A stretch of DNA of 44,863 nucleotides. Origin: a virus. Each line of letters starts with the position of its first letter. Within the stretch, counting starts at the first letter, position 1. Location: positions 1 through 44,863 of the IMG/VR virus record IMGVR_UViG_3300042260_001010, one strand, 5' to 3'. The notes below the pieces were generated by a model. The model was not told the DNA's origin. It did no database searches and worked only from the letters and a program-made list of their open reading frames with translations. Made by a program: the position numbers and the translations under genes. Positions 9,050-15,761 of this stretch are shown one piece after another.

Positions 9050-9373
9050 ATGATGTGCGCCATTTGCAGGCGCGATGCCCGAGGGTATGGGTTCGCGCCA
9101 TGTTTGATCCGTATTGATGCGCCGAGCGTGAAGTTGTGCTCTAGGCGCTGTCAAAACATTGCAGCAAGGCTAAAGGGAATGATTGATCCAAACCAACACG
9201 AAACCAACGCGCTGGCAGCGGCCTGCCAGACAGGGGGCGAGTACGTCGAGTCGCTCGCCAAAACAGATCTGACCAGTTTCACCGCAGTGGAGTGGTCAAC
9301 CTTGATTGATGTGGTCGTGACCGCGTTTCAAGACTCACTTCGTACTGCCTATGCAGATGACCCACCATTTTGA
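9050..9373 (+). CDS. DUF6511-like zinc-finger phage protein
   Basis: 107 residues. The N-terminus MMCAICRRDARGYGFAPCLI ... LCSRRCQ has two Cys pairs (CAIC and CSRRC) forming a probable zinc finger. The C-terminus is helical (SLAKTDLTSFTAVEWSTLID). The architecture is like the DUF6511 family found beside phage primases. ATG codons occur at 9050 and 9053. The TGA (9371-9373) is 8 bases before the primase start, so the genes are likely co-translated. Function is unknown. Confidence 0.78.
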   Translation: MMCAICRRDARGYGFAPCLIRIDAPSVKLCSRRCQNIAARLKGMIDPNQHETNALAAACQTGGEYVESLAKTDLTSFTAVEWSTLIDVVVTAFQDSLRTAYADDPPF

Positions 9374-9381
9374 AGGAACGC

Positions 9382-11691
9382 ATGAATCCAAACAATTACA
9401 TGGCCCATCTTGGGGCCACGCTCGTAGATCGCGGCTATGCCATTTTGCCGATCCAGCCTAGCACTAAGAAGCCGGGCATGTTTCGCCTGGGTGCCTGGCA
9501 GGACTATCCCAAGTGGAGCCGCCACTGTGAGCGCGACACGACTGAGAACGAAGTCGACATCTGGGGCGACTGGCCCGAGGCAGGCATTGGCATCGCCGCA
9601 GGCAAGGTGATTGGCATCGACATTGATGTGCTGCAGTCCAAAGACATCGCGGTTCAGATTGAGGGCTTGGCCAAGCGGCTTCTGGGCGACACACCTGCAG
9701 TTCGTATCGGCAACGCCCCCAAGCGATTGCTGGTGTACCGTGCGGCCCAGCCCTTCAGTGGCTTTAAGTTCCCGCCCATTGAGGTCTTGGGTGTGGGGCA
9801 GCAGTTCATCGCCTATGGCATTCACCCGGATACCGGCAAGCCCTACGAGTGGCCCGTGCAAACCTTGGCCGATCTGAAAATTGAGGAACTGCCCGTCATC
9901 ACCGAGGCGCAGGCACGCGAGTTTGCGCGCCAGGCCTACGAGATGGTCCCCGAATCCATGCGTCCCAAAAGTCTGGGCGTGGGTTTGAAGTCCCCCGTGG
10001 CGTTTGCCAATCTGCCCGAGCAGCGCGGCACGTTTGAAGCAGTGCAAGACGCGCTGCAGTACATCGCCAACCAGGATCTGGACTACGACAGTTGGGTGCG
10101 CATCGGCATGGCCATCAAAGGGGCACTTGCCGAAAAGGGCTGGCCACTCTTTGAGTCCTGGTCTGCGGCGTCCACCAAAAACGACGCCAAGACTACCGCC
10201 AAAAGCTGGGCCAGTTTTGCTCCCCAGCGCATTGGGGCGGGCACCATCTACAAGCTGGCGCTGGACAACGGCTGGATTCCGGATTCTGACCTGCAACTCA
10301 ACGGTGAGATTGTGATGAACGGACACCACCCGGCCAAGGGGTTGTTGCAAACGCTGCAAACATCAAACCCAATCACGATTGATGGATCAGGTGCACCTCC
10401 CGTGCTGCCACCACCCAAACCACTGCCGACGGGCTGGGACCAGGTGGGCGGCGTGATTGCCGACATGATGACGCTCATGGCGGCGACGGCCAAGCGTCCC
10501 CAGCCCGTGCTGGCGCTCGGAGCAAGCCTGTGTGCCATCGGCGCGCTGATGGGGCGCAAGTACCGCACCGAGAGCAATACGCGCTCAAACCTGTATGTCG
10601 TAGGCATCGCCGAGAGCGGCGCAGGCAAGAACCACAGCCGCGTGGTGATCAATGAGTTGTTTCGCAAAGCCGGGCTGCTGCAATACCTGGGCGGCAACAA
10701 GATCGCATCGGGTTCCGGTCTTTTGACGGCCATCCAGCGTCAGCCCGCCATTCTTTTTCAGCTAGATGAGTTCGGCATGTTTTTGTCTGCAGCCGCTGAC
10801 CGCAAACGCTCGCCTCGCTATGTGTGTGAAATCCTGGACCTGATGACCGAGCTGTACACCACCTCGGGTACGACTTACTTTGGTATTGAGTACGCAAGCA
10901 ACCAGCTCAACAACGCGCACCGGGCCATTCACCAGCCCTGCGCCTGCATCTACGGCACCACCACGCCGATTCACTTTTGGCAGGCGCTCCAAGCATCCAA
11001 TGTGGCCGACGGCTCTTTGGCGCGCTTTCTGATCCTGGAGAGCGAGGACGATTTCCCCGACAGCAACGAACTCTTTGGAACGATCGATCCACCGCAAGAC
11101 CTGATCGACCGACTGCTCCTGATCCACCAGGGCGGCGGGCAGTTGAGCGGGAACCTCACGGATGTGGGTGCGATTGATGAAGTGCTGGTTGATCCGCGTG
11201 TGGTGCCGATGACCGCGCAGGCACGAGACGCTTTTCGCGTGCTGGACCACGAGTTACTGGGGCGGCTTCGCTTGTCGAGAGGCACCGGTTTTTCATCGAT
11301 CCTGGCGCGCATTGAGGAGAACGCCACCAAACTGGCCCTGATTCGCGCCGTGTCGCGGGACGCGGTGACGCCGCAGATCGAGGACCACGATGCGCATTGG
11401 GGGATTGCGCTCTCGCGCCACTGCGCCGAACTGACAATCCGAGAAGCCACGGCGCGCGTCTCAGAAAACCAGGTCGAGTCCAACCATAAACGCGCCCTGC
11501 AAATCTTGCGTGATGGCGATGCCGCTGGAATGTCCAAGAGCGAGTTCACTCGGCGTACCCAGTTCATGGATCACCGCCAGCGGGACGGCGTGCTGCGCAC
11601 CTTGACGGATGCCCACCTGGTTGAGGTGTTCGCCAAGCCAACGGGCGGCAGGCCCAGCCAATGGGTCAAACTGGCTGACGCAGATGAGTAG
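9382..11691 (+). CDS. Primase-polymerase / DUF3987-type replicative helicase-primase
   Basis: 769 residues. An N-terminal Prim-Pol domain carries the acidic motif GIDID (Asp80, Asp82), then VRIGNAPKRLLVYR (107-120) and GVGQQFIAYGIHPDTGKPYE. A PriCT-2-like linker follows (ALQYIANQDLDYDSWVRIGM, about residues 220-240). The C-terminal half is an ATPase with Walker A IAESGAGKNHS. It resembles DUF3987 phage/plasmid replication proteins and is probably the key initiation and priming protein. I chose the ATG at 9382 because GAAGGA lies 5 bases upstream. A TTG at 9370 overlaps the previous stop and is less likely. The gap that follows contains a repeat array likely to be its substrate. Confidence 0.88.
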   Translation: MNPNNYMAHLGATLVDRGYAILPIQPSTKKPGMFRLGAWQDYPKWSRHCERDTTENEVDIWGDWPEAGIGIAAGKVIGIDIDVLQSKDIAVQIEGLAKRLLGDTPAVRIGNAPKRLLVYRAAQPFSGFKFPPIEVLGVGQQFIAYGIHPDTGKPYEWPVQTLADLKIEELPVITEAQAREFARQAYEMVPESMRPKSLGVGLKSPVAFANLPEQRGTFEAVQDALQYIANQDLDYDSWVRIGMAIKGALAEKGWPLFESWSAASTKNDAKTTAKSWASFAPQRIGAGTIYKLALDNGWIPDSDLQLNGEIVMNGHHPAKGLLQTLQTSNPITIDGSGAPPVLPPPKPLPTGWDQVGGVIADMMTLMAATAKRPQPVLALGASLCAIGALMGRKYRTESNTRSNLYVVGIAESGAGKNHSRVVINELFRKAGLLQYLGGNKIASGSGLLTAIQRQPAILFQLDEFGMFLSAAADRKRSPRYVCEILDLMTELYTTSGTTYFGIEYASNQLNNAHRAIHQPCACIYGTTTPIHFWQALQASNVADGSLARFLILESEDDFPDSNELFGTIDPPQDLIDRLLLIHQGGGQLSGNLTDVGAIDEVLVDPRVVPMTAQARDAFRVLDHELLGRLRLSRGTGFSSILARIEENATKLALIRAVSRDAVTPQIEDHDAHWGIALSRHCAELTIREATARVSENQVESNHKRALQILRDGDAAGMSKSEFTRRTQFMDHRQRDGVLRTLTDAHLVEVFAKPTGGRPSQWVKLADADE

Positions 11692-11703
11692 ACGGTTCAA
11701 TCA

Positions 11704-11976
11704 GACTCCACGTTTGAAAGATGAAGTATTGAAAGAAGCCCTCGCGGTGACTTCTTTCAATTACGACCTTCTTTCAATGGGGGTGCCTCTATATACAAAT
11801 AAATATTCGGGGGCCCTATACACACAAAAAATCCCTCGCGCGCGCGAAAACGTGCGCTCTGGTGGGGTCAGAGAGGGTAGACAGAGAAATATGTATATAT
11901 ATTGAAAGAAGAAGTATTGAAATAAGTACCTCCCAGACCCGGACTCCACCTTTGAAAGATGAAGTATTGAAGAAAG
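11704..11976 (+). repeat. Iteron-like array of an 11-mer (ATTGAAAGAAG); candidate replication origin
   Basis: The 455 bases between the primase and the RuvC-like gene hold no gene. They contain eight copies of an 11-mer close to ATTGAAAGAAG in four pairs. Direct pairs start at 11713/11728, 11901/11916 and 11951/11966, each with 15-bp spacing. One inverted pair starts at 11751 and 11768. The first and fourth pairs sit in a 29-bp direct repeat (11704-11732 and 11942-11970, one mismatch). Copy 11728-11738 and its inverse 11751-11761 form a perfect 11-bp stem. AT-rich tracts (11790-11805, 11889-11900) and a CGCGCGCG run (about 11837-11846) lie between them. Iterons beside a primase-helicase gene suggest an origin; a regulatory role is also possible. 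Confidence 0.72.
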
Positions 11977-12022
11977 TCCCCGTCACCTGTTGATGACTTT
12001 TTGCCAGCCCTGATAACCGCAT

Positions 12023-12039
12023 CCGATTGGACAAATCGG
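12023..12039. repeat. Small inverted repeat upstream of ruvC-like gene
   Basis: Perfect CCGATT (12023-12028) / AATCGG (12034-12039) with a 5-base loop, in the gene-free gap between the iteron-like array and the resolvase gene. There is no T-tract, so it is not an obvious terminator. It could be a protein-binding site. Confidence 0.4.
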
Positions 12040-12145
12040 CAATGACAGACATGAGGGAGCCGCACCCGCCCTGACACGGCCTTGGTGCCAGCGCTCCTCC
12101 AGGTCGCACAAGAACCCTTGTACGAACCCTTGGAGGAAATCCCTG

Positions 12146-12688
12146 ATGAATAACAAACCAACCCCACGCCTCGTCATCCTGGCTCTTGACCTGGGTACGA
12201 CCACCGGCTGGGCACTGCGCTCGGCAAACGGTCCTGTGGCGCATGGCTTCGTGAGCTTCAAGTCCCAGCGCTTTGAGGGCGGCGGCATGCGCTACCTGCG
12301 CTTTGGCCGGTGGCTCGCTGACATGCTGACCTTGAATGCGCCAAAGACTTGCGCACAGCCCAATTTAACGGGCATTGGAGCCGTTTACTTTGAAGAGGTG
12401 CGCCGTCACCTCGGCGTGGACGCCGCACACGTCTACGGCGGCCTGCTGGCCACGCTGACCGCCTGGTGCGAGCACCACCAGATCCCGTATCAGGGCGTGC
12501 CCGTGGGCACCATCAAACGCCATGCCACCGGCAAGGGCAACGCGGGCAAGGCAGAGGTGATTGCGGCCATGAAGGCGTTGGGCCACCCGGTCACCGACGA
12601 CAACGAAGCGGATGCGCTGGCACTCTTGCACTGGGCGCTGGCGCAGGGTGCGGATCCCGCCTGGGGCAAGGAGGTGCGCCATGGCTAA
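12146..12688 (+). CDS. RuvC-like Holliday junction resolvase
   Basis: 180 residues with an RNase H-like fold. The first strand LVILALDLGTTTGWAL carries the first catalytic Asp (about residue 14). VYFEEVRRHLG supplies the Glu (about residue 73). The C-terminal helix DDNEADALALLHWAL supplies the last acidic residues (about 152-157). This is the RuvC-type set used by phage crossover-junction endonucleases to resolve recombination intermediates before packaging. GGAGG lies 8 bases before the ATG. The last 8 bases overlap the next gene. Confidence 0.85.
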   Translation: MNNKPTPRLVILALDLGTTTGWALRSANGPVAHGFVSFKSQRFEGGGMRYLRFGRWLADMLTLNAPKTCAQPNLTGIGAVYFEEVRRHLGVDAAHVYGGLLATLTAWCEHHQIPYQGVPVGTIKRHATGKGNAGKAEVIAAMKALGHPVTDDNEADALALLHWALAQGADPAWGKEVRHG

Positions 12689-13202
12689 AAAGCAAGTTGC
12701 ACAGCCACTGACCCACGGCGCTCTGGTGAGCCTGCCCGGTGGTCGGGTTGGTGAGTGGGTGAGCGAGGCAGAGGAAGGCACCAGCTACCGCACCGAGCAT
12801 TTCCGGACCGTGGACTCGCTCGGACTTTTGATGCGCAATGGCGCGATCACAGCGCAAATGCACGACGCGGGGCAAGACTTCTCCCGTACCTTCGTGTTTG
12901 CGCAGCTAAGTTCTGCGGGCTCACCGCCGCTTGATCGCATCCCCGGCGGTCATTGGCAGGACACGATGACCGAGCGTTGTGCCTGGGCCAGAAAGCGCCT
13001 GGGCGAGGCGCTTGATGCGGTGGGCGGCATCGGCAGCCCCGGCGGCTGCGCAGTCTGGCATGTGGCAGGTTTGGGTCAGAGCGTGAGGGAGTGGTCTGCC
13101 CAGGAGGGGTGGAACGGACGCACACTCAACCAGTACGAGGCCAAGGGCATTTTGGTTGGCGCTTTGGGGGTGTTGGCGGTGCACTACGGGTACTCGCGGT
13201 AG
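12681..13202 (+). CDS. DUF6456-like phage protein
   Basis: 173 residues from the ATG at 12681. The C-terminal half has the pattern HDAGQDFSRTFVFAQL ... ERCAWARKRLGEALDAVGGI, then GCAVWHVAGLGQSVREWSAQ and GILVGALGVLAVHYG. I associate this with DUF6456, which in alphaproteobacteria is the C-terminal domain of an HTH regulator and here stands alone. The N-terminal part (GRVGEWVSEAEEGTSYRTEH) is less conserved in character. It is last in the replication operon and translationally coupled to the resolvase. A role in late-gene control is possible but only inference. Confidence 0.68.
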   Translation: MAKKQVAQPLTHGALVSLPGGRVGEWVSEAEEGTSYRTEHFRTVDSLGLLMRNGAITAQMHDAGQDFSRTFVFAQLSSAGSPPLDRIPGGHWQDTMTERCAWARKRLGEALDAVGGIGSPGGCAVWHVAGLGQSVREWSAQEGWNGRTLNQYEAKGILVGALGVLAVHYGYSR

Positions 13203-13217
13203 TTGCTTGCGCTGTTA

Positions 13218-13246
13218 TTGCCTTGTGTCAACATAATATTTACACT
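13218..13246 (+). promoter_or_regulatory. Candidate promoter for HigA-like gene
   Basis: TTGCCT (13218-13223) and TACACT (13241-13246) with a 17-bp spacer in an AT-rich patch. Each box matches consensus at four of six positions. It lies 37 bases before the antitoxin-like start. Confidence 0.45.
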
Positions 13247-13282
13247 ATTTCCAACAAATTATTGATTGCCTGGAGGTGTAGA

Positions 13283-13588
13283 TTGAATGGTCGTATTCCA
13301 ACTCACCCCGGTGCTGTTTTACGGGAAGATGTACTCCCCAACCTAAAGGGCATAACCAAAGGCGAATTCGCCAAAATGTTGGGTGTCTCAAGACAGACGC
13401 TTTATTTACTGCTGGCTGAGCGAACCGGGGTATCGGCAGAGGCGGCGTTGCGCCTGGGAACGCTGCTTGGCAACGGCGCGCAACACTGGCTGGACATGCA
13501 GTCTCAATTTGACCTGTGGCAAGCAAAGACCAAACTGGGCGATGAACTGAACAAGATGAAGCCGCTGAACTATGTGGCAAAGGGTTGA
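13283..13588 (+). CDS. HigA-family antitoxin / XRE regulator without a visible HigB
   Basis: 101 residues starting at TTG (13283); GGAGG is 6 bases upstream. The start NGRIPTHPGAVLREDVLP, then GEFAKMLGVSRQTLYLLLAE (HTH) and AALRLGTLLGNGAQHWLDMQ, is the standard HigA/VapA profile. HigB-type toxins normally lie just upstream, but here that space ends in the DUF6456-like gene, so this antitoxin is an orphan. It might protect the host against a chromosomal HigB or act as a plain regulator. A second small regulator fragment follows 30 bases later. Confidence 0.82.
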   Translation: MNGRIPTHPGAVLREDVLPNLKGITKGEFAKMLGVSRQTLYLLLAERTGVSAEAALRLGTLLGNGAQHWLDMQSQFDLWQAKTKLGDELNKMKPLNYVAKG

Positions 13589-14459: not shown

Positions 14460-14467
14460 TTGTACAA
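14460..14467. promoter_or_regulatory. TGTACA-type operator between yefM and the methyltransferase gene
   Basis: The palindrome TTGTACAA contains the TGTACA core recognised by YefM proteins. It lies in the 38-bp divergent gap and nearly touches the methyltransferase start, so repression could affect both genes. Confidence 0.5.
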
Positions 14468-14468
14468 C

Positions 14469-15761
14469 ATGATGACTCAAAATTGGTTAATCAGTAAAGT
14501 CGAGCAGTGGCCAACGGCCAAGCTGTTGCCCTATGCCCGCAATGCGCGCACCCACTCTGAGGCCCAGGTCGGACAGATTGCCGCCTCCATCAAGGAGTTC
14601 GGCTTTACCAACCCCATTTTGGCGGGCGCTGATGGCGTGATCGTCGCAGGGCATGGACGCTTGGCTGCAGCCCAGCACCTGGGTCTGGAATCGGTTCCCG
14701 TGATCGTGTTGGACCACCTGAGTGCAACGCAAAGGCGCGCTCTGGTGCTGGCCGACAACCGCATCGCTGCCAATGCTGGCTGGGACGAGGAGTTGCTGAA
14801 ACTTGAAATCACCGAACTCGATGAGGCCGACTTCAATCTGGATCTGATGGGCTTTGGTGACGAAGAACTCGAGCGTTTGCTCAATGGCGAGGGCGACACC
14901 ACGGGCCTGACAGATGACGATGCAGTACCCGATATGCCAGCTGACCCTGTCTCCAAAACAGGTGATGTGTGGGTCTTGGGTCAGCACCGTTTGCTGTGTG
15001 GTGACTCCACAGTGCTCTCCGATGTGGAGCGCCTTATGAACGGTCAGCTCGCAGACATGGCGTTTACTGATCCACCCTACAACGTGGACTACGGCAACAA
15101 CGCCAAAGACAAGATGCGCGGCAAGGACCGCCGCATCATGAACGATGCGCTTGGTGACGGGTTCTACAAGTTCCTCTACGACGCCTGCGTCAACTTGTTG
15201 GTGGTGACCAAAGGTGCTTGCTACGTGTGCATGAGTTCCTCTGAGTTGCACACCCTGCAAAAGGCCTGGCTGGATGCCGGTGGCAAGTGGTCCACGTTTG
15301 TGATCTGGGCCAAGAACACTTTTACGCTTGGTCGCGCCGACTACCAGCGCCAGTACGAGCCCATCCTGTACGGATGGAAGGAAGGCGCAAAACACTTCTG
15401 GTGTGGCGATCGTGACCAGTCGGATATCTGGAACTACAAAAAGCCCCATGTCAACGACCTGCACCCGACGATGAAGCCGGTGGAGTTGGTCGAGCGTGCC
15501 ATTAAGAACTCATCCAAGACGCGCGACATCGTGATCGACTTGTTTGGCGGCTCTGGCACAACGCTCATTGCTTGCGAGAAAACCAATCGCCAGGCGCGCC
15601 TCTTGGAGATGGACCCCAAGTACGTGGACGTGATCGTCAAGCGTTGGCAAGACTTCACGGGTCAGCAAGCGGTGCGTGAGGACGATCAAATCAAGTTTGA
15701 CGACATGCACCCGGCATTGTCCGAGGTCAAAAATGCTGAAGTGGCCAGTGCGCCACTTTGA
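14469..15761 (+). CDS. ParB-like nuclease domain fused to adenine DNA methyltransferase
   Basis: 430 residues. Residues about 15-100 are a ParB/Srx-like domain (LLPYARNARTHSEAQVGQIA ... GVIVAGHGRLAAAQHLGL). Residues about 165-405 form an N4/N6 methyltransferase with DPPY (201-204) before FGGSGT (359-364), so it is beta class. It methylates adenine (or N4-cytosine) in DNA. No restriction enzyme is adjacent, so it is an orphan, possibly protecting phage DNA from host restriction or marking it for packaging. ATG codons occur at 14469 and 14472. AGGAA lies at 14453-14457; a TTG at 14460 is too close to it. Confidence 0.92.
   Translation: MMTQNWLISKVEQWPTAKLLPYARNARTHSEAQVGQIAASIKEFGFTNPILAGADGVIVAGHGRLAAAQHLGLESVPVIVLDHLSATQRRALVLADNRIAANAGWDEELLKLEITELDEADFNLDLMGFGDEELERLLNGEGDTTGLTDDDAVPDMPADPVSKTGDVWVLGQHRLLCGDSTVLSDVERLMNGQLADMAFTDPPYNVDYGNNAKDKMRGKDRRIMNDALGDGFYKFLYDACVNLLVVTKGACYVCMSSSELHTLQKAWLDAGGKWSTFVIWAKNTFTLGRADYQRQYEPILYGWKEGAKHFWCGDRDQSDIWNYKKPHVNDLHPTMKPVELVERAIKNSSKTRDIVIDLFGGSGTTLIACEKTNRQARLLEMDPKYVDVIVKRWQDFTGQQAVREDDQIKFDDMHPALSEVKNAEVASAPL

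Follow-up and report, generated by a model that had tools for sequence, protein, structure and literature searches.

We propose that an array of short repeats lying directly behind a primase-helicase gene is the replication origin of a tailed phage, and that it is bound by the winged helix of the phage's own Prim-Pol/AAA+ initiator, a reading to which we give a probability of roughly 0.86. Comparison of sequences makes it very likely that DNA copying starts at the array, whose repeats covary, across about 200 related phages and prophages, with single residues of the enzyme's predicted DNA-binding tail. An earlier note on this DNA had suggested an origin bound by the adjacent Prim-Pol/helicase. 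The conservation of the array and its covariation with the winged helix support this suggestion, and from them we infer origin activity.

The array behind the primase gene

The stretch of DNA analyzed here, called the window, comprises the 44,863 b of the IMG/VR virus record IMGVR_UViG_3300042260_001010. A direct similarity search with the window gave no DNA-level match to known phages; its relatives occur as prophages in Limnohabitans and in other proteobacteria. The proposed initiator is encoded on the plus strand at 9370-11691 (stop codon included, TTG start as listed). It is a primase-helicase of 773 amino acids with Pfam matches to Prim-Pol (1.9e-12), PriCT_2 (1e-15), and DUF3987 (2.6e-12), the last being its AAA+ part, and it matches phrog_3022, DNA primase (1.5e-75); phmmer against the PDB found no convincing relative. 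The next conserved gene encodes a RuvC-like resolvase and starts with an ATG at 12146. The gap between the primase stop at 11691 and this ATG, described previously as gene-free and 455 bp long, measures 454 bp; it contains no conserved gene and holds the array.

The iteron array after the primase gene is real. All eight near-identical 11-mers of the earlier note are present, with zero to two mismatches to ATTGAAAGAAG. The leftmost pair consists of TTTGAAAGATG at 11713-11723 (plus strand), which leads into a degenerate unit, TGAAGTA, at 11722, and of ATTGAAAGAAG at 11728-11738 (plus). Two minus-strand copies of ATTGAAAGAAG, at 11751-11761 and 11768-11778, make up the conserved left (inverted) block. 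On the right, all on the plus strand, ATTGAAAGAAG at 11901-11911 and ATTGAAATAAG at 11916-11926 form the conserved inner block, and TTTGAAAGATG at 11951-11961 and ATTGAAGAAAG at 11966-11976 the outer one. Exact TTGAAAGA occurs 8 times in the 44.9-kb window, against 1.45 ± 1.16 times in shuffled sequences (none of 100 shuffles reaches 8), and six of the eight copies lie inside 246 bp (11714-11777 and 11902-11959). When up to two mismatches to the 11-mer are allowed, there are 16 matches in the whole window, against 8.5 after shuffling, and 1 of 100 shuffles reaches 16, so that the 11-mer is not very rare at this scale; half of these matches fall in the 264-bp stretch of the array.

The repeat unit is better read as one of 8 bp, with a TGA core every 7-9 bp and two blocks facing apart. 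The 15-bp spacing reported for the pairs holds for those on the same strand, whereas the two members of the inverted pair are 17 bp apart. Most 15-bp pairs are in fact triplets of 7-8-bp units whose middle member is degenerate (TGA at 11715, 11722, and 11730, and again at 11953, 11960, and 11968). Hence, the real period is 7-8 bp. The idea that a 15-bp spacing may turn the pairs to different faces of the helix does not stand, since this spacing conceals the 8-bp unit, and the helical-face argument must be redone.

Some features of the window are recent. The 29-bp direct repeat seen previously is present as part of a 41-bp repeat (11704-11744 and 11942-11982, 88% identical), whose left copy, on the plus strand, carries the lineage-specific leftmost iteron pair. 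This duplication added the left plus-strand pair and thereby created the perfect 11-bp stem (11728-11738 with 11751-11761), which does exist in the window. Both the stem and the leftmost plus-strand pair are absent from L011 and L017, two relatives that are 96-97% identical, which places the duplication outside the basic design of the array. The AT-rich core also had to be redrawn: instead of one core there are two AT-rich blocks, at 11790-11809 (85% AT, adjoining the left iterons) and at 11886-11902 (88% AT, adjoining the right iterons), which flank a GC-rich CGCGCGCGCG stretch and are candidate unwinding elements. The region 11779-11900 is 52% AT overall, compared with 43% for the window, and is not uniformly AT-rich. 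The cumulative GC skew has its minimum at ~5-11 kb and rises after ~12 kb; this weak signal, confounded by gene orientation, is consistent with an origin at the array.

Other kinds of elements were considered for the gap. A CRISPR repeat array was rejected, since a period of 7-9 bp in two orientations is not a series of identical repeats with unique spacers. The Rfam search gave no match at the gathering score and only sub-threshold matches in the gap, including CRISPR-DR6, rejected with 17.6 bits against a cut-off of 39. A terminator scan for which 0.8 matches were expected returned two terminator-like ones, both on the minus strand; the non-conserved 11-bp stem is one of them. An origin of the lambdoid O type, with iterons within the initiator gene, was discarded because all copies fall after the stop codon at 11691.

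Conservation of the array among relatives

The comparison covered 222 distinct gaps from IMG/VR and GTDB genomes, each lying behind a gene for a related primase (about 48-100% identity). They come from Limnohabitans, other Betaproteobacteria, Alphaproteobacteria, and Magnetococcales. In GTDB, the identity of the primase is 97-98% in Limnohabitans isolates and MAGs, 86% in Zwartia, 68-69% in Accumulibacter, near 53% in Rhodobacteraceae and others, and 48-51% in Magnetococcales. Nearly all relatives share one cassette order, i.e., SF2 helicase, small gene, Prim-Pol, non-coding gap, and RuvC-like gene, and the gap is mostly 290-500 bp long. The HTH and DUF6456 genes near the array of the window are not kept across relatives while the cassette is, so that the protein binding the array should be one of the cassette.

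The conservation, layout, and period of the array, like its covariation with the winged helix, emerge from this comparison. The earlier note would have been refuted by relatives with the primase but without the array and with no loss of replication; instead, wherever the primase is retained, an array is almost always present as well, in the same place and with the same layout. The inverted array is retained even though the flanking sequence diverges. In 20 gaps of the Betaproteobacteria type, TTGAA occurs 89 times, against 15.4 ± 3.8 in shuffles (maximum, 25) and 5 in coding controls; nine more distant gaps contain 40 copies, against 8.4 ± 2.8 in shuffles and none in coding controls. These are enrichments over shuffles of about six- and five-fold, respectively. 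The minus-strand copies occupy the first ~90-120 bp and the plus-strand copies the next ~150 bp. The spacing of TGA[ACG] on the same strand in representatives peaks at 8 bp (57 cases at 8, 22 at 7, and 21 at 9), whereas coding controls about twice as long give 4, 1, and 2 cases, respectively. The conserved plan is a minus-strand left block, a spacer, and then one or two plus-strand right blocks. The left block is often shorter than the right one, or different from it, and the spacer has AT-rich patches at the inner edges of the blocks and often a CGCGCG run. A test of 6-mer enrichment per locus was passed by 62 of 141 loci and is weak when taken alone. Nor could gaps be told from coding DNA by a general inverted-array statistic, for which controls were equal or higher in 14 of 30 cases.

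The CGCGCGCGCG run, at 11836-11847 in the window, lies between the blocks in most, but not all, gaps of the Beta- and Alphaproteobacteria types; it is missing from L045, L057, L079, L145, and L208. Three loci with primases ~79% identical (L065, L069, and L205) retain no more than a remnant of the TTGAA repeats, their place being taken by long T-rich and GT-rich tracts; the array may have decayed there, or the origin may have moved elsewhere. In L152, L448, and L450, the tblastn match of the primase runs ~700 bp past its usual length, in L152 into the RuvC-like gene. These long matches are probably two neighboring matches joined together, not a fusion.

Covariation with the winged helix of the primase

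The last 83 residues of the primase (691-773, encoded at 11440-11688, plus strand) are predicted to form a C-terminal winged-helix domain, which we propose as the one binding the iterons. Its AlphaFold2 model (pLDDT 84) has the order helix-strand-helix-helix-strand-strand, and its structural matches are winged helices, with Z up to 9.7. The Foldseek matches of the domain include the Orc1-DNA complex of Aeropyrum, and a model of the helicase with the winged helix matches ORC/MCM chains with E values of 2.5e-5 to 1e-3 and low TM. The VIA-align matches are generic winged helices and single out no initiator, which speaks neither for nor against the proposal. The primase is thus predicted, from these models, to have an AAA+ helicase followed by a C-terminal DNA-binding winged helix.

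Our strongest evidence is that residue 724 of this domain covaries with the fourth base of TTGAn. Among the callable loci of the 222 distinct gaps, Ser goes with A in 169 of 170 cases, Thr with A in 7 of 8, Arg with C in 6 of 6, and Asn with G or C in 7 of 8. Over 72 dereplicated loci, this residue ranks first of 747 primase columns, and ranks 2 and 3 are taken by residues 735 and 711, both within the winged-helix domain. In the window, Ser724 (codon at 11539-11541, plus strand) is at the start of helix 2, and the predicted recognition helix begins with His735 (codon at 11572-11574, plus strand). These two places often contact DNA in winged helices. The rule pairing Arg with C was written down before further relatives were fetched, and the two newly fetched loci with Arg, L375 and L444, obey it, the array of L444 being mixed. 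The exceptions are L450 (Asn with A), L155 (Thr with G), and L210 (Ser with mostly G), and some 20 loci with Ser were uncallable because their iteron copies are too few or too mixed.

To take shared ancestry into account, we used a quick tree of the helicase columns that leaves out the winged helix and has some long branches. It requires no fewer than 9 changes of the iteron base and 12 of the residue. Of nine independent pairs with unlike base classes, 6-7 are concordant and none is opposed (p 0.016-0.031), although these contrasts are few. L146 (Arg724, TTGAC) and L374 (Ser724, TTGAA) are near sisters on the tree and have identical recognition helices. Their domains differ at about a dozen other positions, and hence residue 724 is not proven to be the sole cause of the switch. 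As far as covariation goes, the C-terminal domain would set the specificity for the iterons.

Could the array be the site of some other protein, e.g., for ParB-like partition, for the product of the HTH antitoxin-like gene, or for a host factor? Genes of the first two kinds do lie downstream of the array (HTH at 13091-13588, ParB-like/methyltransferase at 14460-15761). Yet, hardly any of the more distant relatives has the HTH gene beside the array, the ParB-like gene is neither at a constant distance nor of constant identity, and no column of five other cassette proteins equals residue 724. The top corrected MI is 0.22-0.29 bits in RuvC, the small gene, the SF2 helicase, and the Cas4-like protein, compared with 0.50-0.55 for the primase on the same rows. 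For SSB it is 0.38 against 0.41 for the primase, a close result from only 37 rows, which are too few to separate them. Residue 724 thus stands above every column of the five neighboring proteins, with SSB close behind, and we see hardly any chance that the array is the site of another protein.

If the array is the origin, the primase-helicase encoded just upstream would act as its own initiator. The C-terminal winged helix would read the 8-bp iterons, TTGAARKA, in the two opposed blocks. By analogy with known initiators, AAA+ rings could form at either block, open the AT-rich patches of the inner edges, and load onto the strands thus exposed, which the Prim-Pol domain would prime. Since the blocks are inverted, the two rings would point in opposite directions and give two divergent forks. 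Covariation supports the specificity of the binding; the physical binding itself, melting, priming, and the bidirectional start are inferred.

Many iteron initiators also autoregulate. The binding of the primase at the array could equally serve autoregulation, and the array may be an operator and no origin at all, with the winged helix controlling transcription across the gap toward the RuvC-like gene and the operon beyond it. The array sits between two genes of one apparent operon, and covariation speaks of association, not of replication. Still, such an operator seems improbable as the whole explanation. No sigma-70-like promoter turned up when 11600-12200 was scanned for the consensus. Of the 8 exact TTGAAAGA copies, 2 lie outside the gap, a number expected by chance, which leaves no regulon. 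Inverted blocks with AT-rich inner edges exceed the needs of a repressor, and a position 3' of the binder's own gene is the usual place of the origin in SaPI and SCCmec (PMC7581432).

Known systems, a possible wider family, and a leader

The SaPI Rep and SCCmec Cch2 initiators bind, with their C-terminal domain, iterons directly downstream of their own genes, and these helicases are proposed to act as two hexamers (PMC7581432). Like them, the phage has an AAA+ helicase with short iterons directly 3' of its own gene, to which binding is here predicted. It differs in three respects: its helicase is a DUF3987 fused to an archaeo-eukaryotic Prim-Pol and PriCT-2, its iterons are inverted blocks of 8-bp TTGAn units, and it is a tailed phage, whereas the others are a satellite and a cassette. 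The order of domains is the one of the PrimQH-type primases of mobile elements, i.e., primase, PriCT-1/2, P-loop ATPase (DUF3987 among them), and winged helix (PMC5862659). Origin recognition by this winged helix was suggested without cognate DNA sites (PMC5862659), and the phage locus supplies candidates for such sites. The alpha protein of phage P4, likened here from its description in PMC4234260, primes, unwinds, and binds origin repeats via a winged helix, all in one protein, as we propose for this phage; it is a TOPRIM-type primase, whereas ours is a Prim-Pol.

The ORF904 of pRN1 and the protein of phages BPP-1/BIP-1 resemble the phage initiator in having Prim-Pol, helicase, and C-terminal winged helix, with an origin on the 3' side that in our case is a putative one. 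Such a position of the origin was shown for pRN1, where it lies directly 3' of the Prim-Pol gene and functions when relocated, and was proposed for BIP-1; in both, a stem-loop was described, but no iterons, and the helicase was assigned to SF3 (PMC4234260). The proposal of Berkner et al. for these two replicons, backed by deletion data in pRN1 (PMC4234260), offers another reading of our array, in which its inverted repeats form a large hairpin or cruciform and are not double-stranded sites for a protein. As single-stranded DNA, the array of the window does fold slightly better than shuffles (z -2.2), and inverted repeats other than the perfect stem remain in it. But this stem is not conserved, the left block is often shorter than or unlike the right one, a hairpin does not require an 8-bp tandem periodicity of the TGA core, and the identity of the iteron base tracks a residue of the winged helix. 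We thus find a stem-loop origin very improbable here, and favor an origin made of iterons bound by the winged helix.

The stem-loops of BPP-1 and pRN1 may themselves be inverted iterons. In Bordetella phage BPP-1, which is near-identical to BIP-1, the arms carry two tandem 9-bp ACGAGGCAA units per side, and each arm of pRN1 holds two TGTCCA units 9 bp apart. Neither set of repeats is individually significant in the general inverted-array test; hence, we offer this as a hypothesis, for which the repeats are suggestive only. Among distant Prim-Pol phages, a similar plan with other repeats is found in Rhizobium phage RHph_TM3_3_14B and Sinorhizobium phage AP-16-3 (AATTCCAAA) and in Synechococcus phage Ssp-JY40 (GCTAACCGAC), whereas no such array was seen directly behind the primase in Vibrio 1.005.O, Roseobacter CRP-902, Pseudoalteromonas C7, and Escherichia KS_W4. 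It is conceivable, with a chance somewhat short of even, that the Prim-Pol/AAA+/winged-helix initiators of phages and plasmids, including those of pRN1 and BPP-1, share opposed blocks of tandem 8-10-bp iterons 3' of their genes, and that a few winged-helix residues (724 and 735) determine specificity, switching with single iteron bases. If true, this would be a readable protein-DNA code for replicon compatibility. The origins of Prim-Pol phages are mostly unknown, and here the initiator, its sites, and its apparent specificity residues can be read from the sequence in about 200 phages and prophages. Natural pairs such as L146 and L374 make origin recognition directly testable, as they do the sharing of origins, or the interference with them, among phages and satellites. 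The stem-loop reading of the pRN1 and BPP-1 origins, which may really be inverted iterons, is thereby open to question again.

Finally, the gap contains a second element, separate from the iteron array. A structured leader occupies 12049-12145 on the plus strand, with a core at 12049-12106 followed by a hairpin over the GGAGG ribosome site. No Rfam family matched it, and its RNA fold has a z of -4.1. It has three nested stems with compensatory changes and a possible GACC/GGTC pseudoknot; in 42 relatives, both partners of a pair had changed in 31 cells, whereas shuffles gave 8.5 ± 2.5 such cells and slid controls no more than 6. All 47 testable copies precede a RuvC-like gene, and the leader is a candidate translational control element of this resolvase. 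The alphaproteobacterial loci L157-L214 have a leader of other sequence and similar shape (GGCGAGACCGCAGCCTTCACCGGCCAGCCCTCTCGCC) before GAGGAGGTC and the RuvC-like gene, e.g., in L162, where it lies ~254 bp past the primase stop.
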